Shown piece by piece: positions 15,899 through 44,759 of a stretch of DNA of 44,978 bases. How positions within the stretch are numbered: position 1 is the first letter of the stretch; the number at the start of each line of letters is the position of its first letter. The stretch spans positions 1-44,978 of the forward strand of contig JAFTUK010000020.1 of NCBI GenBank assembly GCA_017466325.1. The letters are read 5' to 3'. The translations under genes were made by a program, and so were the position numbers. This DNA is from Bacteroidaceae bacterium (lineage in GTDB: Bacteria > Bacteroidota > Bacteroidia > Bacteroidales > Bacteroidaceae). Below the pieces are notes generated by a model. The model was given only the letters and a program-made list of their open reading frames with translations, was not told the origin of the DNA and ran no database searches.

Positions 15899-15984
15899 TC
15901 TGTTGTAGTATCAACAGGGAAGTGTTGATGTAGCAACACTGCGGTGTTGATGTATCAACAAACCAGTGTTGTCAGTACAACACT
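15899..15984. repeat. Four tandem palindromes at 22-bp period (array A)
   Basis: Four units, centred at 15908.5, 15930.5, 15952.5 and 15974.5, are exactly 22 bp apart. Unit 2 is AGTGTTGATGTAGCAACACT, with a 7-bp stem. Unit 4 is AGTGTTGTCAGTACAACACT (9-bp stem counting one more flanking pair). Units 1 and 3 have 6-bp stems built on TGTTG/CAACA. The two-base joins are GA, GC and CC. The array sits between the fucO stop and the fucA start. Confidence 0.85.
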
Positions 15985-16027
15985 GCCGTAACTATACTAT
16001 AGCATTATGCGCATCATTGCGGAATGG

Positions 16028-17182
16028 TTAGAGAACCTTCTCGTAAAGTCTCTGGATTATCTCTTTGTTGACGAAGCGTGGGTTGCCGGGCGTGCATACG
16101 TCTGCCGCTGCTGCCGTGGCAAGTTTGTCCAGGTCTTCGGCCTTGATGCCCAGTTCGGCAAGATGCTGGGGTATGCCCACACGGATGGACAATTGGCGAA
16201 CGGCCTCTACGGCTGCCTCTGCTGCCTCCTCATTGCTCATGCCTGCCGAGTAAACATTCATTGCCTTGGCAATCTGCACGTACTTGTCTATGGCGGCAGG
16301 CATGTTGAACTCCATCACCGTGGGCAGAAGCAGGGCATTTGCCACACCGTGGGGTATGTCGAAAATGGCGCCCAGAGGGTGTGCCATGCCGTGTACCACG
16401 CCAAGACCCACGTTGGAGAAGGCCATGCCGGCAATGTACTGTGCCACGGCCATGCCGTTGCGTGCCTCTGCGTTCTGTGGCTCGTTCACGGCAGTCTCCA
16501 GATAGCGTGCTATCATCTCTATGGCCTTCAGTTCGAACATGTCGCTCATTTCCCATGCACCCTTGGTGATGAGACCCTCGATGGCATGTGTAAGGGCATC
16601 CATACCGGTGGCTGCGGTCAGGCCGCGGGGTAGGGTGTACATCAGTTCGGCGTCCACAATGGCCATCACGGGGATGTCGTTGGGATCCACGCAAACCATC
16701 TTCTTCTCGTTCTCCTCGTCGGTGATGACGTAGTTGATGGTCACCTCGGCAGCCGTACCGGCTGTGGTGGGCAGTGCTATGATGGGCACGGATTTCTTCT
16801 TGGTGTCAGCCACGCCTTCCAACGAAACCACATCGGCAAACTCGGGGTTGTTGGTTATTATGCCCACGGCCTTGGCGGTATCCATGGAGGACCCTCCGCC
16901 GATGGCTATGATGAAGTCGGCGCCCGACTTGGCAAATGCCTCAACACCGGCCTTCACGTTGGACACGGTGGGGTTGGGCTTGATTTCGCTGAACACCTCG
17001 TATGGGATGCCTGCATTTTCCAGAACCTTCAGCACCTTGTCGGCAACGCCGAACTTGATCAGGTCCTTGTCTGTGGCAACGAATGCCTTCTTGTAGCCCA
17101 TGCGGGATATTTCCTGTGGGAGCACTTCGCGTGCACCGGGGCCGAAGTATGAAACTTCGTTCAGTATAAAGCGGTTTATCAT
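16028..17182 (-). CDS. fucO: Lactaldehyde reductase / 1,2-propanediol oxidoreductase
   Basis: A 384-residue iron-dependent (group III) alcohol dehydrogenase, matching FucO length. It reduces L-lactaldehyde to 1,2-propanediol with NADH, the fermentative end of fucose breakdown. The NAD-binding GGGSSMDTAKA spans 95-105. The four metal ligands expected in FucO are present: Asp195, His199, His264 and His278; His268 is also kept. It lies second in the operon, 84 bp after fucI. Confidence 0.92.
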   Translation of the reverse strand: MINRFILNEVSYFGPGAREVLPQEISRMGYKKAFVATDKDLIKFGVADKVLKVLENAGIPYEVFSEIKPNPTVSNVKAGVEAFAKSGADFIIAIGGGSSMDTAKAVGIITNNPEFADVVSLEGVADTKKKSVPIIALPTTAGTAAEVTINYVITDEENEKKMVCVDPNDIPVMAIVDAELMYTLPRGLTAATGMDALTHAIEGLITKGAWEMSDMFELKAIEMIARYLETAVNEPQNAEARNGMAVAQYIAGMAFSNVGLGVVHGMAHPLGAIFDIPHGVANALLLPTVMEFNMPAAIDKYVQIAKAMNVYSAGMSNEEAAEAAVEAVRQLSIRVGIPQHLAELGIKAEDLDKLATAAAADVCTPGNPRFVNKEIIQRLYEKVL

Positions 17183-17266
17183 TGTATTAAGATATATAAG
17201 GTAAATGTGGAAGTGTTAGAAAGGAAAAGTCTGTCTCTCCTTTCTAACCCTGTTGGATGTTATGCC

Positions 17267-19042
17267 TTACTTATAGATGGGACCGTAGTTCTGGCATGCT
17301 CTGTAGTCGGCACCCTCCTTGTCCATGCCGAATGCGTTCCATGCGGCGGGACGGAAGATGTTCTCCTCGGGCACATTGTGCATGCACACGGGAATGCGGA
17401 GCATTGAAGCCAGGGTGATGAGGTCGGCACCGATGTGTCCGTAACTGATGGCACCGTGGTTGGCACCCCAGTTGTTCATTACGGAATAAACGTCCTTGAA
17501 GGGAGCCTTTGTCTCGTCCAGACGGGGCACGAACCATGTTGTGGGCCATGTGGGGTCGGTACGCATGTTCAGCACCTCGTGTATCTCGGGATCCACGTCG
17601 GCTGTCCATCCCTCTGCAATCTGCAGGACGGGGCCAAGACCCTTGATGAGGTTCAGACGTGACATGGTAACGGGCATGCCGCCCTTTGACAGGAAGTTGG
17701 AAGAGAAACCACCGCCACGGAAGTAGTCGCGGTCGGCGGGCATCCAGTTGGTGTTCTTCAGGCAAGCCTCGGCATCGGCGTCGGTCATTTCCCAAGTGGG
17801 CTTCATGCAGGGTTCGCCTGCGGCATTGGTGCTGGCACCTGTAGCGTCCAGGGTGGTGGCGCCTGAGTTGATGAGGTGAATCATACCGCCGGAAGCCAGA
17901 CCTGTCAGTTCCTTGCCTGTTACGCGCTTCACGGCCTCGGGACTCCAGTATGTACGCACGTCGGAGAACATCTGTCCGCAACCGGTCAGCAACTTGCCGA
18001 AGAGCATTGCCACGGCGTTGCATGCATCGTTCTCGGTGGCAACTACGTATGCCTCGCGGATACCGTTCCAGTCGAATGTGCTGCAAAGCAGAGCCTCGGT
18101 GAAGTCACCGTTGGGCTTCCAGTCGGTCCACTGGCGCTGGCCCTGGAAACCTGCTGCTATGGCATTGTGGCCGATAGCCTCTTCCTTGAAGCCCATTTCG
18201 CGGAGCTTGGGGTTGCCGAGCATCAGGTCGCGCACGATGAGGGTCATCTTCACTACGAATTCCCAGTCGGCATCCTTGCCGGCACGGTCCTTCTGCTTCT
18301 CGGGACGGTTCTTGTCCCAACCCTCGTTCACCTTACAGTATTTCTCTGTCCATGCCATTGCCTTGGCATACTCCTCGTGGTCGTAGATACCCTCTTCCAT
18401 GCGGCGGAGGATTTCTGTCTCGTCCACGCTCTCGTTGCGCATGCCCAGATATTCCTGGAAGAAGTTCTGGTCAACGATACTGCCTGCGATACCCATGCAC
18501 TGGCTACCTACTGACAGGTAACTCTCGCCACGCATAGTTGCAACGGCCAGAGCGGCGCGTGCCCAGCGCAGAATCTTCTCTGCCACGTCCTCGGGGATGC
18601 TGTTGTCTGCCAGGTCCTGAACGTCATGGCCATAGATGCCGAATGCGGGCAGACCCTTCTGTGCATGGCCTGCCAGTACGGCTGCCAGATACACGGCGCC
18701 GGGACGTTCTGTACCGTTGAAACCCCATACTGCCTTGGGCCAGTGGGGATGCATGTCCATGGTCTCAGAACCGTAGCACCAGCAGGAAGTAACGGAAATG
18801 GTTGCACCCACGCCCTCGCGTTCGAACTTGGCCTGGCATGCTGCGGTCTCGGCCACACGGCCGATGGTGCCGTCTGCAATCACGCACTCCACGGGAGTAC
18901 CGTCGGCATGTTTCACGTTAGCGGAGATAAGTTCGGCAACAGCCTTTGCCAGATTCATTGTCTTTTCCTCAAGACTCTCTCGAACACCGCCCTGACGACC
19001 GTCGATAGTGGGGCGGATGCCAATTTTTGGATACTTGCTCAT
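17267..19042 (-). CDS. fucI: L-fucose isomerase
   Basis: A 591-residue protein, exactly the length of E. coli FucI, converting L-fucose to L-fuculose with Mn2+. The opening [20 protein letters not shown] is the family signature, and [13 protein letters not shown] and the C-terminal [20 protein letters not shown] are also typical. It is the first gene of the fuc operon (fucI-fucO-fucA-fucK-mutarotase-fucP). A candidate promoter lies 55 bases upstream. No fucR-type GntR regulator is adjacent. Confidence 0.97.
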
Positions 19043-19097
19043 AGTGTTAAGTTTGTTTGGGTTTGTATTCTTGTATGTTTTTATGCTATTCGCGTAA

Positions 19098-19105
19098 CAA
19101 ATTTA
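19098..19105 (-). promoter_or_regulatory. Candidate fuc operon promoter (-7 box)
   Basis: The minus strand reads TAAATTTG, an exact TAnnTTTG, 55 bases before the fucI ATG. No clear TTTG sits at -33, which would suit an activated or regulated promoter. Confidence 0.45.
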
Positions 19106-19273
19106 GGAAAAATAATTGAGAATCTTTCATAGGGTAGACTATTTTTCTGCAATCAAGTCAACCTTTATTGCAATTAAGACAGGCCAGAGCAGGTGGGTTC
19201 TTTTGGTTCGTAAACTTATAACTAAGGTAATGAGTGTTGGCGGGTGGGCATTTATTTGTCTCACAACATCGCC

Positions 19274-19337
19274 AGTACTCTCGTGAGGAAACTCCAGTAC
19301 TCTCGTGGGAGTACTGGAGTTTTCTCGTAGGGAAACT
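19274..19337. repeat. Three tandem 20-bp units at 22-bp period (array B)
   Basis: Units are AGTACTCTCGTGAGGAAACT (19274-19293), AGTACTCTCGTGGGAGTACT (19296-19315) and AGTTTTCTCGTAGGGAAACT (19318-19337), joined by CC and GG. Unit 2 is a hairpin that extends to a 9-bp stem with flanking bases, and unit 3 is a hairpin with one wobble. Unit 1 is a chimera: its left arm matches unit 2 and its right arm matches unit 3. It lies in the 363-bp gap between fucI and the radical SAM gene. The rest of that gap holds only the fuc promoter. Confidence 0.88.
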
Positions 19338-19405
19338 GAAACGGCCCCTGGCATACCACGCGCCTCCCCAGTATCCACTTTGCGTGAGATGAAAATGAGG
19401 GTAAT

Positions 19406-20095
19406 TCATCCTACGCCAAGGTCGGTGTTGTCTATGAGGACTTCGGCTTTGGAGGATTTCTGTAGGGTGGGGTAGACTTCGGCCAGGAACCATCGGAGCA
19501 TGTCGTCGTTGCGCCGGAGGGCGGTGGTGTTGGGGCAGAATACGTTTACGCTGTAATACTCGAAATGGCGTTCTGCCAAGTCTATGTCGCGGAGCAGGCG
19601 CTCCCTGGTGTCGCCGGGAGTGTCGGTGCAACAGAGCAGGCAGAGTCCTTGGAAGTGACGTGCTATATCCTCGGGCGTGACATGCGGTGGTATGCCTTTA
19701 TGCCAGTTGGCGCGCAGGGTTGGGGAGAAGGTTTCCACACCGCAACGGAACTTTACTACGGCAGGCTGGAACTGCCGTGCAAAGTCGGCAAGCCTGTGGC
19801 GGTACATATAGTGTGCTTCGAACCAGATGGTGTGTATACACTTGTCCTTTACCACTTTCCTTATCTCGGATATGGTTTCGCTGTCCAGTTCCATGGCAGA
19901 ACCAGAATTGATGATGTCCAGCACACCGAACTTGCCGGTGACACGCTTCAGCACCTCCTTGTTGACGTGGTATGGTGTGGGGGAAATGTCGCTACAATAA
20001 TCGCAGAAGGTACACTTGCCCCACTTGCAACTGGTACCTTGCAGGAGGAGGAACTCTCGTGGGAAGTTTCCCCGGATGACGGAATACCTGTTCAT
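19406..20095 (-). CDS. Radical SAM protein, possibly a QueL-like queuosine lyase
   Basis: A 229-residue protein with cysteines 23, 28, 31 and 34 in GTSCKWGKCTFCDYCSD, a CX4CX2C variant of the radical SAM cluster motif. A later GVETFSP segment is typical of SAM-barrel strands. The start at 20095 overlaps the stop of the queuosine-precursor transporter gene as ATGA, so the two are translationally coupled. In Clostridioides difficile, QueL is a radical SAM queuosine lyase that frees queuine and works with transported precursors. Context therefore suggests a queuine-salvage role. The longer frame to 20497 runs through the transporter gene in another frame and is not credible. Confidence 0.7.
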   Translation of the reverse strand: MNRYSVIRGNFPREFLLLQGTSCKWGKCTFCDYCSDISPTPYHVNKEVLKRVTGKFGVLDIINSGSAMELDSETISEIRKVVKDKCIHTIWFEAHYMYRHRLADFARQFQPAVVKFRCGVETFSPTLRANWHKGIPPHVTPEDIARHFQGLCLLCCTDTPGDTRERLLRDIDLAERHFEYYSVNVFCPNTTALRRNDDMLRWFLAEVYPTLQKSSKAEVLIDNTDLGVG

Positions 20096-20772
20096 GCGCC
20101 CCTTCTCCTGTAGTAATGGTTCAGACGGTTTACGGCCACATAGGCCAGCGGCGTGCCGGCAAAGACCTCTATTACGAGTTTCAACACGTATTGCAACAGC
20201 ATCATTTTCAAAAGGTCTTCGGTAGACACCGTGCCGTAGAAGGCAATGAGTACGAAGGGGACGGAGTCGAAGACATATCCCACCATGGAACTGCCTATTG
20301 TCCTGAGCCACATGTGCTTGCTGCGTGTCCACTCCTTCATTCGTTCCATGATGTAGGCGTTGGAGAGTTCTCCCAGCAGGAAGCCTGTGAGCGAACCTAT
20401 CACTATCCTGGGCACATAGGAGAAGATGTGGTTGTAGGCCTGTGCCGTCTCGTCCAGATAGTCGGGCGAAGGCATCCATATGCCTATGTTGGTGCACAAG
20501 ACCAGCACGATGTTACACATGAGACTCAGGTAGATTACGCGCTTGGAGATACGGTAGCCCCATATCTCGGTGAGCACGTCGCCCAGCATGTAGGCGAAGG
20601 GGAAGGTGATGGTTCCTGCGTCGAAGTAAAAAAAGCCGAATATACTGACTATCTTGACAGCCATCACGTTGGAAACGAGATAGAGTGTCACAAACAGTCC
20701 TGTGACTATCATCAGTGGTGTGTCAAAAAATACTCGGTTTTTTAAAGGGTTTTCCGATACCTTGTTATTCAT
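20092..20772 (-). CDS. yhhQ: Queuosine precursor transporter (YhhQ/VUT family)
   Basis: A 226-residue membrane protein with about six hydrophobic segments. The family traits are the early LYLVSNVMAVKIVSIFGF, the FDAGTITFPFAYMLGDVLTEIWGY block, and a C-terminal segment with VEVFAGTP. E. coli YhhQ imports preQ0 and preQ1 for tRNA queuosine. The start at 20772 is chosen because the upstream ATG at 20841 overlaps the promoter -7 box. It overlaps the radical SAM gene by 4 bases. Confidence 0.9.
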   Translation of the reverse strand: MNNKVSENPLKNRVFFDTPLMIVTGLFVTLYLVSNVMAVKIVSIFGFFYFDAGTITFPFAYMLGDVLTEIWGYRISKRVIYLSLMCNIVLVLCTNIGIWMPSPDYLDETAQAYNHIFSYVPRIVIGSLTGFLLGELSNAYIMERMKEWTRSKHMWLRTIGSSMVGYVFDSVPFVLIAFYGTVSTEDLLKMMLLQYVLKLVIEVFAGTPLAYVAVNRLNHYYRRRGA

Positions 20773-20826
20773 TCTTTCGTGTGTGTTGGGTGTATTGTTT
20801 ATGAGATTTCTATCGTTTTTGCGGTG

Positions 20827-20834
20827 CAAAGATA
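20827..20834 (-). promoter_or_regulatory. Promoter of the queuosine-precursor transporter operon
   Basis: The minus strand reads TATCTTTG, an exact TAnnTTTG, 55 bases before the ATG at 20772. It overlaps the codons that would follow an ATG at 20841 and so excludes that start. Confidence 0.55.
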
Positions 20835-20841
20835 CAAACAT

Positions 20842-21151
20842 TTATTGAAGTTTTGACGATGGTTAAACGATAAAATCCCTCAATGCCCGAATGTCACCGC
20901 TATCACATACATGTATTAACAGGGCATCTGGCTAATAAAGTCTGTCAAACGATTGTGCAAAGACCTGATTTATGCAATCTGGCATATCTGTTACCGGATG
21001 TCAGGCAGGGGAAATGTAGTCCTCACATAAGAAAAGTGTCATTATCTACACTAAAAGGCGGGAAAATCCAATAAAAATAGTTATCTTTACAGCCTAATAA
21101 TGACGTTTTGTACTGAATAACCTGTTTGTCGGTACCAAAACGAAAGTATAT
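20842..21151. other. Intergenic 310 bp, no gene seen
   Basis: This stretch separates the divergent transporter and omega-amidase genes. I see no conserved frame, tRNA or strong hairpin. A weak -7-like TATCTTTA at 21082-21089 might serve the omega-amidase gene. Confidence 0.5.
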
Positions 21152-21922
21152 ATGACCATGAAGATAAACCTGATACAGACAGATATCGTATGGGCAGAAC
21201 CGGAGGCGAACCGCCAGCATGCAGAGAGCATCATGCGCTCGCAGGACAAGGCCGACCTTTATATCCTGCCGGAGATGTTCTCTACGGGCTTTGCCACGCA
21301 ACCCGAGGGAATAGCAGAAGACTTTAATGACGGTTCGTGCGCTTCGCTTGAGTGGATGAAGCAGATGGCGGCAGAACTGGATGCCGCCGTAGCGGGAAGT
21401 GTTGCCGTAAGGGAGGAGGACGGCCGCTATTACAACCGTTTCTGCTTCGTGCGCCCAGATGGAGATTGCACCTTCTACGACAAGCACCATCTTTTCACCT
21501 ATGGCGGCGAGCACCATCGTTATACGGCAGGAAAGGAACGTGTGGTGGCTGAGTTCCGTGGTGTGCGCTTCCTCCTGCAGATATGCTACGACCTGCGATT
21601 CCCCGTATTTGCACGCAACAAGGCCGACGAACCCTATGATGCGATTATATATGTGGCAAGTTGGCCCACTCCCCGAGTGGAGGCATGGCTGGCGCTGCTG
21701 AAGGCCAGAGCCATAGAGAACCAGTGCTATGTCTGTGCCGTGAACCGTGTGGGCACAGATCCTGCGTGCCACTATTCCGGCGGCACACTGATGATAGACC
21801 CTTATGGCAAGGTGGTGGCACAATGCCCCATGGATGAAGAAGCATACGTGTCGGCAGAAACTGACCTGGAGGCACTTTGTGCCTTCCGCGAGAAATTCCC
21901 GGTACTGAAGGATGCGGACTAA
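21152..21922 (+). CDS. Omega-amidase, nitrilase superfamily (YafV type)
   Basis: A 256-residue carbon-nitrogen hydrolase. The Glu-Lys-Cys triad is visible: Glu41 in LPEMFSTGF, Lys111 in DKHHLF and Cys145 in QICYDLRFP. PEMFSTGF and CYDLRFPVFARN are the YafV/Nit2 signature. It hydrolyses 2-oxoglutaramate or 2-oxosuccinamate left by glutamine or asparagine transaminases. Starts at 21152 and 21158 are both possible. The aminotransferase operon downstream could generate such amides, but no direct link is seen. Confidence 0.9.
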   Translation: MTMKINLIQTDIVWAEPEANRQHAESIMRSQDKADLYILPEMFSTGFATQPEGIAEDFNDGSCASLEWMKQMAAELDAAVAGSVAVREEDGRYYNRFCFVRPDGDCTFYDKHHLFTYGGEHHRYTAGKERVVAEFRGVRFLLQICYDLRFPVFARNKADEPYDAIIYVASWPTPRVEAWLALLKARAIENQCYVCAVNRVGTDPACHYSGGTLMIDPYGKVVAQCPMDEEAYVSAETDLEALCAFREKFPVLKDAD

Positions 21923-22120
21923 GGAAACGGAAAACTGGAAACGGAAATCTGCGAGTAAGCGAGAGCAGAGAAAATTTATTTACTCTGCCGAGCGGAAGCA
22001 GATTCGACGAAGTCAAAACGGAAATCGGAAAACGGAAAACTCCAATTATTCCGAAAAGGACTAAGGAAACTGAACCATAGAATTATAGTGGCGGACACGG
22101 CATGCCGTGTCCCTACAAGA
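21923..22120. repeat. Composite intergenic repeat with long hairpin and perfect palindrome
   Basis: The segment after the omega-amidase gene has purine-rich copies of CGGAAAAC/CGGAAATC. It has a nested hairpin (ATCTGC near 21947 pairing with GCAGAT near 21999; GCAGAG pairing with CTCTGC). It then has the perfect 20-bp palindrome GGACACGGCATGCCGTGTCC at 22093-22112. No gene is credible here. It resembles dispersed intergenic repeats of Bacteroidales. Confidence 0.6.
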
Positions 22121-22153
22121 GAGAAAAGACCGCGAAGCGGGATTAAAACGGAA

Positions 22154-22234
22154 AACTCCGAGAACGCTGAATAATCTAAGTAATCAGAATAATCAGAATA
22201 CTCCGACAACTCCGAATACTCCGATTAATACAAT
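22154..22234. repeat. Nine degenerate 9-bp tandem repeats
   Basis: Nine consecutive 9-mers: AACTCCGAG, AACGCTGAA, TAATCTAAG, TAATCAGAA, TAATCAGAA, TACTCCGAC, AACTCCGAA, TACTCCGAT, TAATACAAT. They mix two subtypes, xACTCCGAx and TAATCxGAA. The array ends 54 bases before the iorA start. A shorter 9-bp array lies at 3742-3786. Confidence 0.8.
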
Positions 22235-22288
22235 AACACCAAGCCCCTCTGCAAAGGAGAAGAGGGCAGACAAAATAGATAATCAACT

Positions 22289-23881
22289 ATGAAGAAACTA
22301 CTACTTGGAGACGAGGCTATAGCACTGGGTGCCATACATGCCGGTTTGGGAGGCGTGTATGCCTATCCCGGCACTCCCTCCACTGAGATAACGGAATATA
22401 TACAGGCAGATGCACTTGCACGCGAACGTGGGGTGCATAGCCGTTGGTGTACAAACGAGAAGACCGCCATGGAGGCCGCCCTGGGCATGTCCTATGCAGG
22501 AAAGCGCGCCTTGGTGTGCATGAAGCACGTGGGAATGAACGTGGCCGCCGATGCATTCGTGAACTCTGCCATAACGGGTGTGCACGGAGGCTTGGTGGTG
22601 GTGGCGGCCGACGACCCCTCTATGCACTCCAGCCAGAACGAGCAGGACAGCCGTTTCTATGCCTCCTTTGCCATGGTGCCTGCCATGGAGCCAGGCAACC
22701 AGCAGGAGGCCTACGACATGATGCGCGCGGCATTTGAGTTGTCGGAACAGTTGCGCGAACCCGTAGTGCTCCGCATAGTCACACGCCTGGCGCATAGCCG
22801 TGCCGCGGTGGAGGTGAGCGAACCCATGGAGGTGCAGGACAGAGGGATATGCCAGGAACGGTGGGTCTTGTTGCCCGGCATTGCCAGGGGGCGCTATGCC
22901 GCCCTTCTGGAGAAGCAGGACGATATGCTGGCGTCTTCCGAGACCTCTATATATAATAAGGTGGAAAAAGGCGAAGGTTCCCTGGGCATAATAGCATGCG
23001 GCATTGCCTACAACTATGTGAAGGAGGCATTGGGCGACAAGGCTAATGTCCTGAAGGTAAGCCAGTATCCCTTGCCCGAATCCAAGATATGCCAACTGGC
23101 AAAGGAGAACGATGCCATAATGGTGGTGGAGGACGGACAACCCGTGGTGGAACAGCAGGTGAAGGCACTGCTTGGTGCCGATTACCCGGTGAAGGGACGT
23201 CTGACGGGCGACTTGCCACGAGCCGGCGAACTGACCCCCGACAATGTGGCCAAGGCCCTTGGCGTGGAAGGCAAGGAAACCATGCAACATTCCACTATAG
23301 TTGCACCACGTCCCCCTCAACTGTGCCAAGGCTGCGGTCACCGCGATGTCTATACGGCACTGAACCAGGTGCTTGCCACATATCCCGACTACAGAGTGTT
23401 TGGCGACATAGGCTGCTATACCCTCGGTGCATTGCCTCCGTTCAAGGCACTGGCCAGTTGTGTGGACATGGGCGCTTCCATCACCATGGCAAAGGGTGCT
23501 GCCGATGCAGGTTTCCATCCGTCGGTGGCCATAATCGGCGACTCCACATTCACGCATAGCGGCATGACGGGTCTGCTGGATGCCGTAAACGACGGGAGCA
23601 ACATCACCGTGGTAATCTCCGACAATCTCACTACGGGCATGACCGGCGGACAGGAGTCGGCTGGAACAAGCAAGTATGAGGCCATCTGCACCGCCCTCGG
23701 CGTGGAGCCTGAGCATGTGCGAGTGGTAGTCCCCCTGCCAAAGAACATGGAGGAGATAACGCGCATACTGAAAGAGGAAATAGACTATCCGGGCGTGTCC
23801 GTTATCATTCCGCGCAGGGAATGTATACAGACGGCGGCACGCAAGGCTCGTGAAGCGCGTAAGTTACGAGAGAACAACTGA
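22289..23881 (+). CDS. iorA: Indolepyruvate:ferredoxin oxidoreductase alpha subunit, no ferredoxin domain
   Basis: A 530-residue thiamine-diphosphate enzyme subunit. It has an N-terminal pyrimidine-binding domain (GVYAYPGTPSTEITEY), a middle domain, and a C-terminal pyrophosphate-binding domain with QGCGHRD, GDIGCYTLG and the GDSTFTHSG...N TPP motif. With IorB it interconverts aryl-pyruvates (indole-, phenyl-, hydroxyphenylpyruvate) and aryl-acetyl-CoA plus CO2, using ferredoxin. Archaeal IorA proteins (about 600+ residues) end with a two-cluster ferredoxin domain; here the protein stops before any such Cys motif. iorB follows 29 bases later. Confidence 0.9.
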   Translation: MKKLLLGDEAIALGAIHAGLGGVYAYPGTPSTEITEYIQADALARERGVHSRWCTNEKTAMEAALGMSYAGKRALVCMKHVGMNVAADAFVNSAITGVHGGLVVVAADDPSMHSSQNEQDSRFYASFAMVPAMEPGNQQEAYDMMRAAFELSEQLREPVVLRIVTRLAHSRAAVEVSEPMEVQDRGICQERWVLLPGIARGRYAALLEKQDDMLASSETSIYNKVEKGEGSLGIIACGIAYNYVKEALGDKANVLKVSQYPLPESKICQLAKENDAIMVVEDGQPVVEQQVKALLGADYPVKGRLTGDLPRAGELTPDNVAKALGVEGKETMQHSTIVAPRPPQLCQGCGHRDVYTALNQVLATYPDYRVFGDIGCYTLGALPPFKALASCVDMGASITMAKGAADAGFHPSVAIIGDSTFTHSGMTGLLDAVNDGSNITVVISDNLTTGMTGGQESAGTSKYEAICTALGVEPEHVRVVVPLPKNMEEITRILKEEIDYPGVSVIIPRRECIQTAARKAREARKLRENN

Positions 23882-36742: not shown

Positions 36743-36782
36743 CGGTAATTTGTAAGGCAAAAGGTTCTTGACCATAAAACAG

Positions 36783-36813
36783 GGCTGACTTCCAGTTTGG
36801 CAAGTCAGCCTTT
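36783..36813 (+). terminator. Rubrerythrin terminator
   Basis: GGCTGACTT (36783-36791) pairs perfectly with AAGTCAGCC (36802-36810) and is followed by TTTATTAT. It lies 40 bases after the rubrerythrin stop. Confidence 0.75.
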
Positions 36814-36883
36814 ATTATGCTTGTGCAATAGACAAAGTGATGTGAAATCCAACAGATGTCCTCTTGTGCCCCTCGCCGAGCCG

Positions 36884-36955
36884 TCGGTGGCGGTAAATTT
36901 ACAGCCCTCGGCGATAAATTTCACCGCCAGTGGCGGCTTGTTTTACCGCCACCGA
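36884..36955. repeat. Three GC-rich palindromic units at about 22-bp period (array D)
   Basis: Units with ideal form GGCGGTAAATTTACCGCC are at 36889-36906, 36910-36928 and 36932-36950, centred at 36897.5, 36919 and 36941. The outer 14 bases TCGGTGGCGGTAAA (36884-36897) and TTTACCGCCACCGA (36942-36955) are an exact inverted repeat. It fills most of the gap between the rubrerythrin terminator and mce. The 83-codon frame across it has no gene character. Confidence 0.75.
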
Positions 36956-37080
36956 GGATTGGAAAGGTGTCTCGTGGGAATAAAGTCAGAACCCTTAGAA
37001 AATGACAAGGGAGAGGAACCGAGTCCTCCCCCTTGTATAATACGCTAAAATGAGGCGGTATTATTAATCTTTTCAAAATT

Positions 37081-37485
37081 TTATTCCTCGCACAACTCGG
37101 TCAGGATGCCGCAGGTGCTCTTGGGATGCAGGAAAGCAATCTTCAGGCCATCGGCACCACAACGGGGAGCCTTGTCGATAAGGCGGATGCCATTTGCTTC
37201 GCATTGGGCCAAAGCCTCGGTAACGCCATCCTCAACCTTGAAGGCAACATGGTGGATGCCACGGCCGCCATTGTCCAGGAACTTCTGGATGGTGCTCTCG
37301 GGGCATGTGGGCTCCAACAGTTCAATCTTTACTTCGCCTACCTTCAGGAATGCGGTCTTCACCTTCTGGTCTTCTACAACCTCCTCCTTATAGAACTCCA
37401 AACCGAGAACGTCGGTGTAGTAGGGGAGAACTTCTGCAATGTTCTGGACAGCGATGCCCAGGTGTTCGATTCTTGAAATCTTCAT
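37081..37485 (-). CDS. mce: Methylmalonyl-CoA epimerase
   Basis: A 134-residue vicinal-oxygen-chelate protein. It has RIEHLGIAVQNI (metal His near residue 7), GIHHVAFKVED (second His) and a C-terminal HPKSTCGILTELCE ending in Glu. These are the metal-binding positions of MCE. It interconverts the R and S forms of methylmalonyl-CoA in the succinate-propionate route common in Bacteroidales. The start at 37485 is preferred to the frame to 37575, which overlaps panD. It follows panD by 22 bases, so it probably shares the panCD transcript. Confidence 0.92.
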   Translation of the reverse strand: MKISRIEHLGIAVQNIAEVLPYYTDVLGLEFYKEEVVEDQKVKTAFLKVGEVKIELLEPTCPESTIQKFLDNGGRGIHHVAFKVEDGVTEALAQCEANGIRLIDKAPRCGADGLKIAFLHPKSTCGILTELCEE

Positions 37486-37507
37486 AATGAATATAGATTT
37501 AAAAGTG

Positions 37508-37861
37508 TTATTGTTTCTTGGGTAATGTGTTGTTCTCGGGGAACGCCACTTGAGGGGTGAAGTCCATGGCCTCATCCGGAGTCATGCGTGCATAGGCCAT
37601 GATGATGATGGTATCGCCCACCTGCACCTTGCGTGCGGCGGCACCGTTGAGGCATACGCATCCGCTTCCGCGTTCACCGGAAATGGTATATGTGTCAAAG
37701 CGTTCTCCGTTGTTGTTGTCTACGATAAACACTCTCTCTCCCGGTATGATGCCCACGGCATCCATCAGGTCCCTGTCCAGGGTGATGCTGCCCATGTAGT
37801 TCAGGTTTGCTTCCGTTACCTGTACACAGTGCAGTTTGCTTTTGAGTACTTCTATTGTCAT
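37508..37861 (-). CDS. panD: Aspartate 1-decarboxylase proenzyme
   Basis: A 117-residue pyruvoyl enzyme making beta-alanine for pantothenate. The self-cleavage site Gly24-Ser25 is in NYMGSITLD, and [10 protein letters not shown] and [12 protein letters not shown] are typical. Length and cleavage position match E. coli PanD (126). It overlaps panC by 4 bases (ATGA). Confidence 0.96.
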
Positions 37862-38700
37862 TTGTATCTGATGTGGTCAATCAAACGTATAGGTGTCTTG
37901 CCGCAATATACAGTAATACAACCGACTACTGAGGCGGAATCAGACCAGTCTTCTATGTCGGCCAGTGTGTCTCCGTCCACTATGCTGTAGTATTCCACCT
38001 CTAAGCCGGGAATCTCGTTGATGTTGCAGACAACCCATTCCCGTGTCTCGCTAACGGTAAGTCCAAGGCTTTTGCTTTCCTTTAGTATGCGGTAGATGTT
38101 GGGGGCAATTGCCTTCTCGTCGGGAGCCAGCAAGGTGTTTCTGCTGCTCATAGCCAGTCCGTCTGCTTCGCGTATTACGGGGCATGGGATGATGTCCACA
38201 CGGAACTTCAAATCCTCCACCATGCGGCGTATGACGGCTATCTGCTGGTAGTCCTTCTCTCCGAAATATGCCCTGTCCGGGTCGGTAATCATGAACAGTT
38301 TGCTTACAATCTGGCATACGCCATTGAAGTGTCCGGGACGGCGTGCCCCCTCCATTACAGAGTCGGTGGGGGGATATGAGAACCGGCGGGTGTCCGGTTC
38401 AGGGTATATCTCGCCTACGCTGGGGGCAAAGGCAATTTGCGCTCCGCACTCCTCAAGTATTGCGCAATCGCTTTCCAGTGTCCTTGGATAGCGCTCCAAG
38501 TCCTTGGGGTCGTTGAATTGCGTGGGGTTCAAAAATATGCTTACTACCGTAATGTCGTTCTCTGAAACGCTTTTGCGAACCAGCGAGGCATGCCCCTCGT
38601 GCAAGGCCCCCATGGTGGGGACAAGCCCGATTGACATTCCTTTTGCACGCTCGGACACAAGAATGTCCTGCAACTGTGCTATCGTGTTAATTACCTGCAT
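37858..38700 (-). CDS. panC: Pantothenate synthetase
   Basis: A 280-residue ligase joining pantoate and beta-alanine with [17 protein letters not shown] holds the HIGH-like nucleotide motif. [25 protein letters not shown] and the KMSKS-like MSSRNTLL are present. It leads a panC-panD-mce transcript and diverges from the GT5-like gene over a 192-bp promoter region. Confidence 0.96.
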
Positions 38701-38740
38701 TGCAATGGTTGAAAAATAACTGTTTGTTCAAAAATTCATG

Positions 38741-38748
38741 CAAAGGTA
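38741..38748 (-). promoter_or_regulatory. panC promoter (-7 box)
   Basis: The minus strand reads TACCTTTG, an exact TAnnTTTG, 40 bases before the panC ATG. Confidence 0.5.
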
Positions 38749-38854
38749 AAATATTTATAGGTATCTAAAGAAAGAAATCGTCCTAAAAAAGCAAAAAAGT
38801 GCTAAATTGAATAAAACAGATGGCAGTCAGGACATGAATGTCGCCGTTTTTTTG

Positions 38855-38862
38855 TAACTTTG
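38855..38862 (+). promoter_or_regulatory. Promoter (-7 box) of the GT5-like gene
   Basis: TAACTTTG, an exact TAnnTTTG, 30 bases before the ATG at 38893. With the panC box it makes a divergent promoter pair. Confidence 0.5.
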
Positions 38863-38892
38863 CACACAAGATAATATGTATATTGCGCATAT

Positions 38893-39750
38893 ATGGAGAA
38901 AGCAAAGAAGATACTTTTCCTGACGCAGGAGATAGAGCCGTACGTCTGTGAAACACCCTTGAGTTCAATAAGCCGTTCGCTTATTCCCGCCGTTCAGGAG
39001 TCTGGCCGTGAGGTCCGCACTTTTACTCCCAAGTGGGGGCAGATCAATGAACGCCGCAATCAGTTGCACGAGGTCATACGCCTTTCCGGCATGAATCTGA
39101 TAATAGACGATACCGACCATCAACTGATTATCAAGGTGGCAAGTATCAATGCGGCACGTATACAGGTATATTTTATCGACAATGACGATTTCATGAAGAA
39201 TCGTCTTATGTTGGCGGACGACAAGGGAAAGTTGTATAAGGACAATGTGGATAGAGTAATGTTCTTCGCACGTGGTTCGCTTGAGACGGTCAAGAAACTT
39301 CGTTGGGTTCCGGAAATAGTGCATTGTCAGGGAATAATGAGTTCTTTGGCTCCATATCTGTTGAAACTGGCATATTATGACGAACCGAGTTTTCGCGAGT
39401 CAAAGATAATCTTTACACCGTCAACGGATATTCCGGAGTCTCCGCTTCCCAAGAATTTTGATGGCATATTGTCTTTCCGTGAGGCTAACAGGACAGCCTT
39501 GTCCACACTTGGCAGTCTGGCCAACCTGGAAGACTTGAACCGCATCGGTATGTTCATGAGCGACGGGGTTGTTCTTAACGAACCCAACGAATACTACCAG
39601 CGTATGGCAAGGGAGATGGGAAAGCCAGTGGCAATACTGGACCCGGAGAATCTCGTGGCCGCTCCATTGGAGTTGTATGATACCTTGTGGGACGAGGTTG
39701 TCAGGAACAGGCCCAAGGAGGAAGACGACGACGAAGGTTTCCTGTTTTAG
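38893..39750 (+). CDS. Glycogen/starch synthase N-domain-like protein, probably not catalytic
   Basis: A 285-residue protein matching only the N-terminal half of GT5 glycogen synthases (KKILFLTQEIEPYVCETPL). Full enzymes are about 480 residues with a second Rossmann domain; it is absent. The ADP-glucose-binding KxGGL motif is replaced by CETPLSS. The form is conserved in Bacteroidales beside panC and the DUF4270 gene, which argues against a broken gene. A regulatory or scaffold role is inferred. Confidence 0.82.
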   Translation: MEKAKKILFLTQEIEPYVCETPLSSISRSLIPAVQESGREVRTFTPKWGQINERRNQLHEVIRLSGMNLIIDDTDHQLIIKVASINAARIQVYFIDNDDFMKNRLMLADDKGKLYKDNVDRVMFFARGSLETVKKLRWVPEIVHCQGIMSSLAPYLLKLAYYDEPSFRESKIIFTPSTDIPESPLPKNFDGILSFREANRTALSTLGSLANLEDLNRIGMFMSDGVVLNEPNEYYQRMAREMGKPVAILDPENLVAAPLELYDTLWDEVVRNRPKEEDDDEGFLF

Positions 39751-39818
39751 GTAGGTTCTGTCATTCAGCATTGAGGTGTTTGATGTTGGTCGTGTTTTGA
39801 TTAGAAAGGACTTTAGAA

Positions 39819-41375
39819 GTGAAGAAACTTAATATATTGGACCGTATAGGTTCATTGGTAGTGGCTTCGGCCATGGCATTTTTAGTCTCCTGTACAGAGA
39901 ATACTGGGAACATAGGCATTCCTCCTGCAAATGAAACATTGGAGAGTAGTGTGGCGGTTTGGGATGTCTACACAAAGTCGGTGAAACTGGATAGCATAAA
40001 GGCACATTCAGTTTCCTCTTATTTGGGGTCGATTTACGACCCGGAAACCAACGGACGTCTTACCGGCAATTTCATCACCCAGTTTGCCGTGATGGAGGGG
40101 TTCAGGTACTTTCCTCCGATAGACTCCATTACATCAAGGGATTCGGAAGGAAGCCCCCGTTGCGACAGCGTCATGTTGCAATTGAATTTTGACACTTATT
40201 ACGGCGATGTCAATACCCCGTTGAAGTTGGCGGTATATCCGTTGGACATGAACAATCCGTTGAGCGAAGACAGCGTATATTACACCAACACGGATTTGAG
40301 AAAGTACATACGTCCCGGATACGAGGACAAGCCCATAGCAACAAAGGTATTCACCGCGTGGGACAGAATACACGGTTCTGACCCCTCTAACGCCACGTCA
40401 GGCAGTTATCCCAGTATACGTATTCCTTTGCCATTGTCTGAAGGCAATCAGATAATGGACAAGTACTGGGAGTACCTGGAAGACAACAAGGGACTTTCAG
40501 AAGAGGAGCATGTAAACCGCAACTTTGACGATTCATATCATTTCATCAGAAACGTCCATCCCGGTTACTATGCTGAAATAATAAACGGTGAGGGTGTGAT
40601 GGTGCGTGTCTTTGTGGATGCCCTGTATCTGATATACAATGCACGTGTACTGAATGACAGCATTGTGGAGGAGGTGCCTTCATATAGCGTGTTTGCAGGT
40701 ACTCCAGAGGTTATCCAGAGTTGCCAGTTCTCGGAATCCGATGTTGCCGAACTGGTGGAAGATGAATCATGCACATGGCTTAAGACACCTACGGGAATAT
40801 GTACGGAGGTAACACTGCCCATTGATGATATCTTCTCAGGAAGCCACAAGAACGACAGTATCAGCCGTGTGGAACTGATGTTCAACAGATACAATAAGGA
40901 GCAGACAGGAAACCAATTCGGTATTCCCCAGAATCTTCTGCTTGTCCGCAAGAGCGAGGCCAACAGTTTCTTCATCCAGAACAAGACTCCGGATGAGGTG
41001 ACGTCTTACCTTGCAGCCTTCCAAAAGGCCTACAATACGTACACGTTCAACAACATCAGCCAGATGGCAACCTTCATGTACAAGGATCGCGAGAATGCCG
41101 TTATGGCCTACATCAAGGATGTACTGAAGGTGGATAACCCTACGGAGGCACAGATTGAGGAGGAGACACACGAATGGACCAAGCGCAATCCTGATTGGAA
41201 CAAGTGTTGCCTTATACCTGTAGAGATTACCACCAATACCGCTTCCGGTTCCATAACAAGCGTAAGCCACGACCTCTCCCTTACGAGCGCCCGTCTGGTA
41301 AAGGGAACCAAGGATGAACCTATCCGCATACAGGTATACTATACCCGTGTAGCCTCCGCCTCCAACAATGAGTAG
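39819..41375 (+). CDS. DUF4270 outer-membrane lipoprotein
   Basis: A 518-residue protein with a lipobox at Cys25 (FLVSCTEN) after a signal peptide, so lipid-anchored. It matches DUF4270 of Bacteroidetes, a large extracellular beta-rich family of unknown role. Translation starts at GTG (39819), giving MKKLN; no nearby ATG fits the signal peptide. Its last 8 bases overlap the helicase gene. Confidence 0.82.
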   Translation: MKKLNILDRIGSLVVASAMAFLVSCTENTGNIGIPPANETLESSVAVWDVYTKSVKLDSIKAHSVSSYLGSIYDPETNGRLTGNFITQFAVMEGFRYFPPIDSITSRDSEGSPRCDSVMLQLNFDTYYGDVNTPLKLAVYPLDMNNPLSEDSVYYTNTDLRKYIRPGYEDKPIATKVFTAWDRIHGSDPSNATSGSYPSIRIPLPLSEGNQIMDKYWEYLEDNKGLSEEEHVNRNFDDSYHFIRNVHPGYYAEIINGEGVMVRVFVDALYLIYNARVLNDSIVEEVPSYSVFAGTPEVIQSCQFSESDVAELVEDESCTWLKTPTGICTEVTLPIDDIFSGSHKNDSISRVELMFNRYNKEQTGNQFGIPQNLLLVRKSEANSFFIQNKTPDEVTSYLAAFQKAYNTYTFNNISQMATFMYKDRENAVMAYIKDVLKVDNPTEAQIEEETHEWTKRNPDWNKCCLIPVEITTNTASGSITSVSHDLSLTSARLVKGTKDEPIRIQVYYTRVASASNNE

Positions 41376-44300
41376 CGAGTGGTTTCAGGAGATGGGGATA
41401 CTCTATTCCCTGTTGCCGGACTATGAAACCGCTTATGCAAGATTAGGCAGGATATTTTTCGAGTTGCTTGACGATGCAACTTCCGAGTCGGATGTCTTGT
41501 TGGCAGGTTGCTTTGCCAAGACGGATTATCTGCTGAAGCAGAAATCAGCAAAACCACAACTCAGACGTATGGTCAATGGCATGCGTCTGAGGTTGACCAA
41601 GGATAAAGGAACACAGAGTGCCGGGAATTTCATGTATGATTTTCAGGCTCTGTGTCTTTTTATTGCCCTGCTGCTGGGCAAGGAGGTCCCGGCGGAACTT
41701 GAAGAACTGTTTCCCAAGGAGCGCCAATCGGGCGGTATATATGCCGTAGATGCTGACTACATCCGTGTTATTCTCCATGATTGGGACGATGAGTTCCTGC
41801 ATTGTACCTCCGAATCGGGAGAAGAGGACATACGGATAAGGTATTCGGGTGAGGGGCAGTTGTATGGACATGACAACTCCTATCTCTCGGAATTGCTCTG
41901 CAAGGGCATGATGCTCAACGTTGTCCGTCCCAGAAAGTCGGAGGACGGAGTCCTGCTGCCTGAACTTCTTGTCCTGGAACCGGACTTTCTTGTAGATGTC
42001 TCCACCATAGCATCGTGCTTCGAGTCTTATGCCGAATCCCCTGTCGTTTCTTTGTTGAGGAGGTTGGAACCGCCGGCAATAACAGAACCCATCCTTATGG
42101 GTAATATGGCATCCGAACTTCTGGATACGGTCATTCACGACAGAGGTAGTGTAGCAGGGCGCTCGTCCGAGATGATGAAGGACCTCTATGTGGAAGCGGC
42201 CAAGAGGTTTTTCCAGAGCAATGCCGTTGGTGTGATGTATGCCCATCCCGACAAATCCTTCCATTCCCTCGCATGGCAACAGATGCAGAACATACACAAG
42301 GCATTGCATGCCACCTTGCCCGAAGCGGTAGACAGGTATGACGAGACCAATGTTGTGGTGGAACCGACATTCTTCTCCGAAATGCTGGGCCTGCAGGGGC
42401 GTATGGATATGCTTCAGACGGATATGAGGGTGCTGGTGGAGCAGAAGGCAGGCAAGGCGGCTTATGTCTATGGCGACGCTGATGCCGACACCCCAAAATA
42501 CAAGGAGCAACACTACATCCAGATGCTCCTGTATATGGCCATTATAAGGTATAATTTCCGTCAACTTTATGAGACTAACAACCGCGAACTGCATGCATTC
42601 CTTCTTTATAGCAAGTACATGCATCCGCTTGTCGGACTGGGGTTTGCACCTGAACTTTTGCACAGGGCCATTGTCCTGCGCAACAGGTATGTGGCACAGG
42701 AGAGGGACCTCTGCCAGGGAGGCATTTCCAAACTGATGTCGTCCACCGCCGAGAGTCTGAACCTGAACGAAGTCCGTGGCAGGCTATGGGAGCAGTATCA
42801 GCGTCCGCGCATTGAAGGCCTGCTTTGCCGTTTCCGCCTTTCATCGGAACTGGAGCGTGCATATTTCCAGCGCTTCTATCGTTTTGTCGCCCTGGAACAC
42901 AGACTCTCCAAGATAGGAAACCAGACAAAGGAGTGTTCCGGATTTGCCAGTGCGTGGCTGTCTTCGTTGGATGAAAAGCAGCAATACGGCAACATTCTTC
43001 TTGGCCTTGCCATAAACGCCGGCCGTTTCCCTGATACGGGACATATATCACACCTGGTGTTGGAATATAGCGGCGAGTCGGGCAATTTCAGACAGGGGGA
43101 CATAGTAGTGTTGTATTCCTATCCGGAAGACCATGCCCCCGACATAAGACGGACGATGGTGTTCAGGGCAGTGATAAGCAACGTTTCGCCCTCTGAAATA
43201 ACCTTGAAACTCAGGAACACGCAGAAGGATGCTTCCGTCTTTCATTGCCCGACGGGCAGTGCATGGTGCCTGGAGCATGACTTCATGGAGAGTTCCTATA
43301 GCGGTCTTTACAAAGGTCTGTATTCCTTTCTGTGTGCTCCCCAGGAGCGCAAGGATCTTGTGCTGATGCAGCGCTCTCCCCGTGTCAATCCTGATGTGTC
43401 CTTGCGTGGTGATTATGGCGGCTTCAACGGTTTGCAGAAAAGGATCAAGGCCTCCAGAGACCTTTTCCTGGTTATCGGTCCGCCGGGAACGGGAAAGACT
43501 TCCTTTGGCATGCTCCATACCTTGCAGGAAGAACTGCTGGAGGGTGACACCAGGGTGCTGGTAGTGTCGTATACAAACCGTTCGGTGGACGAGATATGCA
43601 GCAAACTGTATCCGGAAATAGACTTTATCCGCCTTGGTGGCAATGTGTCGTCCGTCGAAACCTATTCCGAACGCTATCTCGGCAGCATCGTTGCCGAATG
43701 CAAGACCTCGGCTGAGTTGAGGGATAGGGTAGCGGCCGCACGTGTCGTTGTAGGGACAACATCGTCGGCCATGTCGCATCTGCCCCTCCTGTCCATGGAC
43801 CGCTATTCACTCTGCATCATAGATGAGGCCAGCCAGATTCTGGAACCTCATCTTCTGCCTCTGCTCTCCCTTTGTTGTGCCGACGGCACTCCCTGCATCT
43901 CAAGGTTCGTGATGATAGGAGACCACAAACAACTGCCTGCCGTGGTGCAGCAACGCAGCAGGGAGTCCCGTGTTGATGACCCATCCCTGAACGCAATCGG
44001 ACTGTCTGATTGCCGTAACTCCATGTTCGAGAGGCTTCTGACCAGATACCGCCACAATCCGGAAGTCTGCTACATGCTCACCCGTCAGGGACGCATGCAC
44101 AGGGATATCGCACATTTTCCCAATATTGCTTTCTATGGAGGCAAGTTGCAGGAGGTACCCTTGGAACACCAGCTTGCCGCTTCGGCACATTCCAGAGTTC
44201 GTTTTATTGATGTCCAGCCACAGGACTATTCCCAGACGGACAAGGTGAATCCCTCCGAGGCATTCGTCATTGCCGATGAACTCATGCTTATATGGCAACG

Positions 44301-44673
44301 CCATCAGCATGAATTCAAACCCGAGGAGACCGTGGGTGTCATTGTGCCTTATCGCAACCAGATATCTGCCATACGCACAGTACTGGCCGAGAGGCTCGAC
44401 ACTCCTGACCACCCGCTCCTGCACATCACCATAGACACGGTGGAACGATACCAGGGCAGCCAGCGCAATTACATAATTTACGGCTTCACCGTTCAAAAGG
44501 TCTATCAGTTGCGTTTCCTCACAGAAACCACATTCCAGGAAGACGGCATGACGATAGACCGCAAACTGAATGTTGCCATGACACGTGCCAGGGAATACCT
44601 CATCCTCGTAGGCAACAGCCCCCTGCTCTCGCGCGTACCTTTATATAAAAGGTTGCTGCATTATTGCGGTTAG
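41368..44673 (+). CDS. Dna2-like PD-(D/E)XK nuclease and superfamily 1 helicase fusion
   Basis: A 1101-residue protein. The N-terminal 230 residues are unassigned. A Cas4/RecB-like nuclease follows: Asp347 in GRMDML and Glu358-Gln-Lys360 in VEQKAGKA fit the PD-(D/E)XK active site. The second half is a UPF1/Dna2-type helicase with Walker A GPPGTGKTS (704-712), Walker B IIDEAS (817-822), GDHKQLPAVV, VGVIVPYRNQ and NVAMTRAREYLILVG. This order is that of Dna2, which trims flaps and resects ends. It overlaps the DUF4270 gene by 8 bases. Conserved pairing with DUF4270 is a Bacteroidales habit, but no functional tie is known to me. Confidence 0.85.
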   Translation: MSSEWFQEMGILYSLLPDYETAYARLGRIFFELLDDATSESDVLLAGCFAKTDYLLKQKSAKPQLRRMVNGMRLRLTKDKGTQSAGNFMYDFQALCLFIALLLGKEVPAELEELFPKERQSGGIYAVDADYIRVILHDWDDEFLHCTSESGEEDIRIRYSGEGQLYGHDNSYLSELLCKGMMLNVVRPRKSEDGVLLPELLVLEPDFLVDVSTIASCFESYAESPVVSLLRRLEPPAITEPILMGNMASELLDTVIHDRGSVAGRSSEMMKDLYVEAAKRFFQSNAVGVMYAHPDKSFHSLAWQQMQNIHKALHATLPEAVDRYDETNVVVEPTFFSEMLGLQGRMDMLQTDMRVLVEQKAGKAAYVYGDADADTPKYKEQHYIQMLLYMAIIRYNFRQLYETNNRELHAFLLYSKYMHPLVGLGFAPELLHRAIVLRNRYVAQERDLCQGGISKLMSSTAESLNLNEVRGRLWEQYQRPRIEGLLCRFRLSSELERAYFQRFYRFVALEHRLSKIGNQTKECSGFASAWLSSLDEKQQYGNILLGLAINAGRFPDTGHISHLVLEYSGESGNFRQGDIVVLYSYPEDHAPDIRRTMVFRAVISNVSPSEITLKLRNTQKDASVFHCPTGSAWCLEHDFMESSYSGLYKGLYSFLCAPQERKDLVLMQRSPRVNPDVSLRGDYGGFNGLQKRIKASRDLFLVIGPPGTGKTSFGMLHTLQEELLEGDTRVLVVSYTNRSVDEICSKLYPEIDFIRLGGNVSSVETYSERYLGSIVAECKTSAELRDRVAAARVVVGTTSSAMSHLPLLSMDRYSLCIIDEASQILEPHLLPLLSLCCADGTPCISRFVMIGDHKQLPAVVQQRSRESRVDDPSLNAIGLSDCRNSMFERLLTRYRHNPEVCYMLTRQGRMHRDIAHFPNIAFYGGKLQEVPLEHQLAASAHSRVRFIDVQPQDYSQTDKVNPSEAFVIADELMLIWQRHQHEFKPEETVGVIVPYRNQISAIRTVLAERLDTPDHPLLHITIDTVERYQGSQRNYIIYGFTVQKVYQLRFLTETTFQEDGMTIDRKLNVAMTRAREYLILVGNSPLLSRVPLYKRLLHYCG

Positions 44674-44695
44674 CAGCACACTACACGCCGTGCCC

Positions 44696-44759
44696 AGTCC
44701 TCTCGTGAGAGTACTGGAGTTTTCTTGCGAGAGTATTGGAGTTTCCTCGTGGGGAAACT
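44696..44759. repeat. Three tandem 20-bp units at 22-bp period (array C)
   Basis: Units are AGTCCTCTCGTGAGAGTACT (44696-44715), AGTTTTCTTGCGAGAGTATT (44718-44737) and AGTTTCCTCGTGGGGAAACT (44740-44759), each joined by GG. Unit 3 is a perfect 7-bp hairpin, unit 1 has one mismatch, and unit 2 is a chimera of the two arm types. It is the same family as 19274-19337, sharing the centre TCGTG. It lies 23 bases after the helicase stop. Confidence 0.88.

Follow-up and report, generated by a model that had tools for sequence, protein, structure and literature searches.

What holds short palindromes at one fixed spacing while their sequences differ from array to array? The question is raised by a 44,978-nucleotide stretch of Bacteroidaceae DNA (the window; contig JAFTUK010000020.1 of assembly GCA_017466325.1), which is one whole contig of a draft genome of 2.59 Mb in 56 contigs (G000, referred to below as the own genome; 88% complete) and in which a preliminary description had noted four intergenic arrays of 20-bp palindromes repeated every 22 bp. 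Here, we follow these arrays through the own genome and its relatives and describe their association with genes of DUF6078 (PF19555), a Pfam family of unknown function. The reading that we favour, and to which we give a probability of roughly 60%, is that arrays of the class edged by AGT and ACT are cooperative DNA targets of DUF6078, in a partnership like that of repetitive extragenic palindromic (REP) elements with the RAYT protein.

A period of 22 bp

Arrays were detected by a test that scores three palindromic centres, spaced by one set period, jointly with repeat identity, applied at a stricter and a looser threshold. The own-genome sample comprised 41 pieces (795 kb, window included), some of them picked for holding arrays. 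At the stricter threshold it held 20 arrays at period 22 and between zero and three at any other period in the range 14–40, the three being at period 23; at the looser threshold it held 32, and ten local shuffles of the same sample, a control suggested by the preliminary description, gave none. The array-blind part of the sample (26 pieces, 483 kb) holds 15 arrays.

A search of related Bacteroidales for the same spacing, which the preliminary description had also proposed, found period 22 to be dominant in genus relatives and named loci as it is in the own genome. In 39 stretches from genus relatives (720 kb) there were 15 arrays at period 22 against zero to three at other periods, rising at the looser setting to 23, with a next best of seven at period 18, and the relative G035 (520 kb) contains 33 period-22 arrays, with none at periods 18–21 or 23–27. 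Eighty loci of fucI (L-fucose isomerase) from named Bacteroidales (1.39 Mb) held eight at period 22 against zero to two elsewhere; these loci, and the faecal scaffolds discussed below, have no taxonomic placement here, and some could come from the window's own genus. Only two arrays were seen in the relative G011 (220 kb), where period 22 is not outstanding by count. Across 21 genomes from other families of the order (256 kb) there was no period-22 array at the stricter setting, and a laxer one revealed, by eye, one clear array in L107, from such a genome.

The palindrome sequence changes from genome to genome and the geometry is constant, relatives having palindromes of their own (for example AAGACGCGCGTCTT, TTCCCAGCCTGGGAA and TTGAACATACATGTATGTTCAA). 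Joints between units are 2–3 bp long in the families of the own genome and comprise 8–12 less conserved bases in some relatives; unique spacers of repeat length, of the CRISPR type, are not present, the joints being short, and cas genes were not searched. The location between genes that the preliminary description had reported mostly stood, with 6 of the 32 own-sample arrays lying inside crude open reading frame (ORF) calls made as greedy longest ORFs. Such dispersed bacterial repeats are defined by geometry and not by sequence, so sequence-based repeat finders would miss them.

DUF6078 genes and their home arrays

Clustering of array-neighbour genes flagged PF19555, among other small clusters, and three proteins match this family at 111–124 bits, the curated Pfam cut-off being 27. 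A strict array lies within 260 bp of 32 of 43 DUF6078 genes (20/29 genus genes, 3/4 further own copies and 9/10 full loci from other sources), as against 103 of 1142 genes in the sampled stretches (own genome 45/579, G035 43/357, relatives' stretches 15/206, with a few DUF6078 genes among these controls) and none of 20 fucI genes. A DUF6078 match was found in 31 of 61 genus genomes and one locus was fetched for each of 30, of which 29 make up the genus set, the fragment L361 being excluded. The looser threshold gave 36 arrays for 42 DUF6078 genes, 31 of these arrays on the 3' side, between −26 and +79 bp relative to the stop codon; we refer to these adjoining arrays as home arrays.

The linkage extends beyond the genus, since all 13 loci read from other sources carry an array at the looser setting. 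Three of them belong to relatives in other genera of the order, out of six genes fetched there; four are from plasmid records (two of Parabacteroides distasonis, one each of Bacteroides finegoldii and Treponema saccharophilum pTS1), five from faecal scaffolds and one from Prevotella sp. UBA2746. The Treponema plasmid (L368) places the pair of DUF6078 and a 22-bp array in a spirochaete and so in a second phylum, and on a P. distasonis plasmid (L366 1446–2938) DUF6078 stands directly behind a gene annotated as a RhuM family protein. No DUF6078 was found in viral contigs, five 'phage' matches proving to be unannotated faecal scaffolds; PADLOC gave no match to the protein and PHROGs chance-level rows only, and the open-licence literature yielded no paper containing DUF6078 or PF19555.

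Of the five DUF6078 copies in the own genome, four adjoin arrays, with one array family per paralogue. The copy at C33:125187 adjoins a family-A array with b arms, that at C20:39923 a family-A array with a arms, that at C18:34580 a family-D array of 23-bp period, and that at C18:16183 (L083 16183–16592), which is split into two frames and is either a broken gene or an assembly error, a family-B array (L083 16097); the fifth, at C33:58624, has mere array traces 3' of the gene. Families A, B and D are the main AGT...ACT-class families of this genome, and three of the window's arrays (1, 2 and 4, described below) belong to A and B, each of which thus has DUF6078-adjoining arrays. A 23-bp period was also seen in further home arrays, those at L354 947, L359 2041 and L360 2008 joining the family-D array (L362 915, G000:C18), and these arrays represent three or more distinct sequence families.

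Home arrays and proteins diverge together. Half-site similarity rises with DUF6078 protein identity (Mantel r 0.29, reached by 0 of 2000 permutations) over 34 loci, a set that omits L083, L093, L333, L335, L338, L343, L346, L349, L355 and L361 (array missing, below threshold or doubtful, or gene split) and L363–L365, known by their 3' flank only. An exploratory partial Mantel analysis gave p 0.005–0.035 for several of 34 residue windows, including 93–108 and 25–36. The home-array word GAGACANTTCYGTCTC occurs on three G079 contigs and is missing from the 19 other genomes searched, and GTCTCACNGGTGAGAC, the home word of G003, on four contigs of G003, five of G079 and one each of G029 and G067, with none in 16 others. 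Read outward from the dyad, half-sites tend by eye to G..AC(T/A), the outer GT/AC being common and the inner bases variable; the AGT and ACT edges that the preliminary description had found in three of the window's arrays are borne out in this form, and array 3 lacks them.

DUF6078 proteins are about 145 residues long. Across 58 aligned members Cys16, Cys21 and Cys27 are present in all and Cys57 in 98%, the other positions conserved in at least 95% of rows being the start Met, Leu28, Pro48, Ala69, Gly71, Gly106, Pro112, Gln115, Gly126 and Asp134; this alignment shows no obvious catalytic set. Two AlphaFold2 models have a mean pLDDT (predicted local distance difference test) of 87.8 and 95.3, and a sequence search of the PDB returned nothing meaningful. 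We predict that the four conserved cysteines bind zinc.

DNA dyad or RNA hairpin

Palindromes behind a stop codon might equally act in the transcript. Arrays could form chains of hairpins in the 3' untranslated region that protect or process mRNA, possibly with DUF6078 bound to its own message, as the preliminary description had allowed in offering a chain of RNA hairpins as one of its two interpretations. Such a role would suit the 31 of 36 home arrays that lie on the 3' side close to the DUF6078 stop, as well as the depletion of gap-resolved arrays from divergent gaps (7/55 against 122/489 background gaps, p 0.045), and palindromic candidate structured RNAs have been described in Bacteroidetes (PMC8040213), a likeness drawn from the available description. 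The mismatches in the stems nevertheless carry no strand preference: on the gene strand in tandem gaps, G.U and A.C mismatches number 33:24 in the own genome, 16:25 in G035 and 49:49 when pooled, and behind DUF6078 genes they number 34:47. Behind those genes the sense strand even folds worse than the antisense, with means of −30.4 and −32.4 kcal/mol (p 0.007; computed over the 32 home arrays lying 3' of the gene, of which 29 were read together with the gene and the others are L363–L365), and Rfam matches nothing in the window except a tRNA.

Pairing at the centre points the same way, in that many of the relatives' families are palindromic right to the dyad, without a loop. At offset 0, even palindromes are paired in 64% of cases in relatives and 31% in the own genome, and at offset 1 in 85% and 65%; all of these are upper values because the axis was chosen to maximise pairing. 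With the same inflation, columns variable on both sides pair at 0.48–0.49 within their own unit as against 0.31–0.38 across units. The lack of RNA-strand bias and the dyads paired to the centre together favour a dyad at the level of DNA, and we consider a role as RNA improbable.

Tandem hairpins might also serve as intrinsic terminators or insulators, for which their location at gene ends would be fitting and of which at least one array (L328 418–486), inside the loop of a terminator-like stem, is suggestive; of 32 home arrays, only 4 have four consecutive T after them, and this explanation is very unlikely.

Array families and their dispersal

One dispersed family, F1, is present in 9 of 61 genus genomes and absent from the own genome. 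In G035 its pattern has 117 forward and 121 reverse matches (at most two mismatches), and 26 aligned copies share a 66-bp core of three units, never a fourth, in both orientations; as copies were detected by the three-centre test, shorter arrays would escape. Pairing in F1 is 0.70 within units against a null of 0.64 and 0.58 across joints against 0.64, and in the outer flanks pairing within copies does not exceed cross-copy pairing beyond 7 bp. By eye, families C and F3 show imperfect outer inverted repeats. Neither viral contigs nor plasmids gave an F1 match.

Whole three-unit blocks copied both ways raise the possibility that DUF6078 is itself a mobilising enzyme, a new family of transposase or recombinase with the arrays as its substrates, as REPINs are for RAYTs. 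A home array beside the gene, families that differ among genomes and the lack of RAYT in the own genome would all fit, although F1 itself has no known DUF6078 partner. The 58 aligned rows show no conserved catalytic set, no consistent direct repeat indicative of target-site duplication was seen by eye at array copies, and at only 1 of 36 DUF6078 loci does the opposite flank of the gene match the home array better than in 60 shuffles. We regard an enzymatic role of this kind as unlikely.

Ordinary REP elements mobilised by RAYT, the Y1 tyrosine transposase, would likewise be short extragenic palindromes of high copy number with many families per genus, and strong PF01797 matches do occur in 5 of 36 genus relatives (G013, G022, G027, G032 and the array-rich G035). 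There are none in the own genome at its 88% completeness, nor in the array-bearing G001, G002, G005, G008, G011, G012, G025 and G033, and the REP tags GTAG and CGTC are not enriched, occurring in 12 and 9 of 32 own arrays (14.3 and 15.1 in shuffles) and in 5 and 7 of 35 in G035 (14.2 and 10.3). That these are RAYT-driven elements is therefore hardly credible.

Hardly more credible is the idea that the arrays are plain minisatellites growing and shrinking by 22-bp slippage with no partner, their palindromes and their proximity to DUF6078 being incidental. The sister genomes G012 and G024, compared over 40 kb, hold five comparable arrays, all five at the same place in both, and one differs by exactly one 22-bp unit, which is what slippage would produce; this array (L328 418–486 against L329) is the one in the loop of the terminator-like stem (AAAACATCTACTGCC..GGCAGTAGATGTTTT). 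Sister differences are nevertheless fewer in arrays (14/318) than in other intergenic DNA (255/2896; coding sequence 2204/36375), single arrays are copied at many loci, the same period recurs in unrelated sequences, and the linkage to DUF6078 contradicts this explanation.

Partners of the remaining families were sought among 222 ORFs ending toward 127 arrays, and none was found; the clusters present in at least two genomes, DUF6078 aside, looked like orthologous loci or overlapping frames. A paralogue search among 643 own proteins gave no large family, the largest cluster having four members.

Weighing a proposed DUF6078–array partnership

The preliminary description had also suggested cooperative binding of dimers on one face of the DNA, and this is the best-supported reading because a candidate binder, DUF6078, adjoins the AGT...ACT arrays and co-diverges with them. 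We envisage that the dyads, usually three and two helical turns apart, would seat protein dimers side by side on one DNA face, and that the cognate protein of families A, B and D would be DUF6078 with its Cys4 module and possibly a helix-turn-helix part, dimeric and cooperative binding both being predictions. Each gene would keep its home array right behind the stop while copies of it lie scattered through that genome's intergenic DNA, and as specificity and half-sites drift together, genome-specific palindromes would arise within a conserved 22-bp geometry. The effect of binding might be local chromosome control, transcription control or plain self-maintenance.

Several observations weigh against this proposal. 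Hitch-hiking of a home array with its gene, in place of recognition, could give the same co-divergence, and GTCTCACNGGTGAGAC is also common in G079, although another home array adjoins the DUF6078 gene fetched from that genome. Because structure searches with DUF6078 gave no significant PDB or viral match, the weak rows including several helix-turn-helix proteins that rank no higher than unrelated folds, we only infer a Cys4 zinc module and a DNA-reading part. The DUF6078 genes at L343, L349 and L355 have no array at threshold, and those at L333, L335 and L093 have one by eye only, in L333 and L335 right after the stop. PF19555 was found in only 4 of 119 genomes of the order, and 5 of the 9 F1 genomes have no match to it (drafts 62–89% complete); families C, F1, F2 and F3 share the geometry yet have no known partner. 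Finally, the bias of arrays to gene 3' ends is weak, the divergent depletion noted above being accompanied by a convergent excess at p 0.053 and tandem 3' nearness at p 0.18.

The association is nevertheless a first lead on the DUF6078 family, and if specificity does track the arrays, they would offer dozens of natural protein–site pairs from which to read a recognition code.

The four arrays of the window

Arrays 1, 2 and 4 consist of imperfect 20-bp palindromes with 2-bp joints at a period of exactly 22 bp. Array 1 (15899..15984; family B, AGTGTTG..CAACACT) has four units, the first diverged, and lies between an Fe-ADH gene (16028–17182, minus strand) and a class II aldolase gene (15150–15797, minus strand). 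Array 2 (19274..19337; family A) has three units of arm types a/b, a/a and b/b and is flanked by the 3' end of an unknown gene (19406–20497, minus strand) and the start of fucI (17267..19042, minus strand), the gene between arrays 1 and 2 that served as the query for named relatives and as a control. Array 4 (44696..44759; family A) lies 22 bp past the stop codon of an AAA/helicase-domain gene (41368–44673, plus strand), its three units combining an AGTCCTC left arm with a type-a right arm, then b/a, then b/b.

Array 3 (36884..36955; family C, GGCGG..CCGCC) departs from this plan. Its units of 18–19 bp start at 36889, 36910 and 36932, with 3-bp joints and spacings of 21 and 22 bp, it lies between convergent rubrerythrin and glyoxalase-family genes, and it fails the array test in the window, chaining at a looser palindrome-only setting; cleaner copies of family C occur in L046, L049, L057, L081 and L083, and array 3 is a worn copy of that separate family. 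The single plan first ascribed to all four arrays thus holds for three of them, and in place of one family there are three, A and B with DUF6078 as partner and C with none found. At L096 from 19769 (G000:C50), a family-A array is followed at once by family-C sequence.

The earlier statement that the two arms change together holds only in part. Of 50 family-A units in the own genome, matching arms account for 40 (22 a/a and 18 b/b) and mixed arms for 10 (6 a/b and 4 b/a; Fisher p 4e-5). In the window, two of the six family-A units have unlike arms, the unit at 19274 joining AGTACTC with GGAAACT and that at 44718 AGTTTTC with GAGTATT (4/7 pairs each), and in the relative G005 arm types match in only 6 of 17 units. 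Mixed arms in family A would be explained by two related DUF6078 copies whose arrays have different arms.

The surroundings of fucI vary among relatives. The gene is present in 21 genus relatives, of which only G004 also has fucO, and the window's gene upstream of fucI is beside it in none of the 21. An array of another family lies about 490 bp behind fucI in G067, and in G033 (L244 1151–1217) one unrelated in sequence stands about 285 bp before it, approximately where array 2 sits in the window, next to a different upstream neighbour; fourteen named fucI gaps checked by eye have no arrays. The window's FucI is up to 98% identical to proteins of other named Bacteroidales metagenome-assembled genomes (L146–L157), in which the upstream gaps look unrelated, and fucose genes are possibly exchanged among Bacteroidales. 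In L147, a tandem repeat of about 41 bp (CCGTCCGACGGTCGCAAAAA...) lies upstream of fucI, before position 1910.

Comparison with known systems

At the lambda operators OR and OL, and at those of restriction controller proteins, adjacent dyads about two turns apart are bound by cooperative dimers at single sites upstream of genes. The arrays share this spacing of adjacent dyads and differ in lying behind the gene and in having copies at many loci.

Among the matches listed from the open-licence literature, the relevant repeats were REP/REPIN, BrickBuilt, PINSR and a set of candidate structured RNAs only. The last, from the human microbiome, are intergenic palindromes of 80–132 bp, some found only in Bacteroidetes and most predicted to be terminators; like the arrays they are palindromic and intergenic, and their description, as far as available, mentions neither a tandem period nor DUF6078 (PMC8040213). 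PINSR of Prevotella intermedia is a lineage-specific, dispersed intergenic repeat, as the arrays are, and is described as a 188-bp element in 177 and 184 copies with no terminal inverted repeats, the available text making no mention of a period or palindromes (PMC4755523). Closer is BrickBuilt of Porphyromonas gingivalis, a miniature inverted-repeat transposable element (MITE) that is likewise intergenic and dispersed in Bacteroidales with tandem units of about 22–23 nucleotides (PMC4596501). In the text available for it, however, BrickBuilt is one family of 23-nucleotide repeats in up to 22.8 copies with a leader and tail and no partner gene is mentioned, whereas the arrays have a palindromic unit, usually in three copies, and many unrelated sequences.

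REP elements and REPINs are, in the text available, short palindromic extragenic repeats, species-specific and dispersed, with a cognate RAYT gene that has a copy adjacent to it (PMC3733652). The arrays resemble them in being short extragenic palindromes of many copies, in genome-specific families and with a copy beside a cognate gene, and differ in the absence of RAYT from the own genome and eight array-bearing relatives, in the lack of GTAG/CGTC enrichment, in their strict three-dyad 22-bp geometry and in a partner, DUF6078, that has no known catalytic motif. DUF6078 and its arrays may, at slightly under even odds, constitute a new class of partnership, in which a predicted Cys4 DNA-binder reads fast-diversifying half-sites held in a 22-bp three-dyad frame and each paralogue seeds a family of its own; families C, F1, F2 and F3 would then have further partners.

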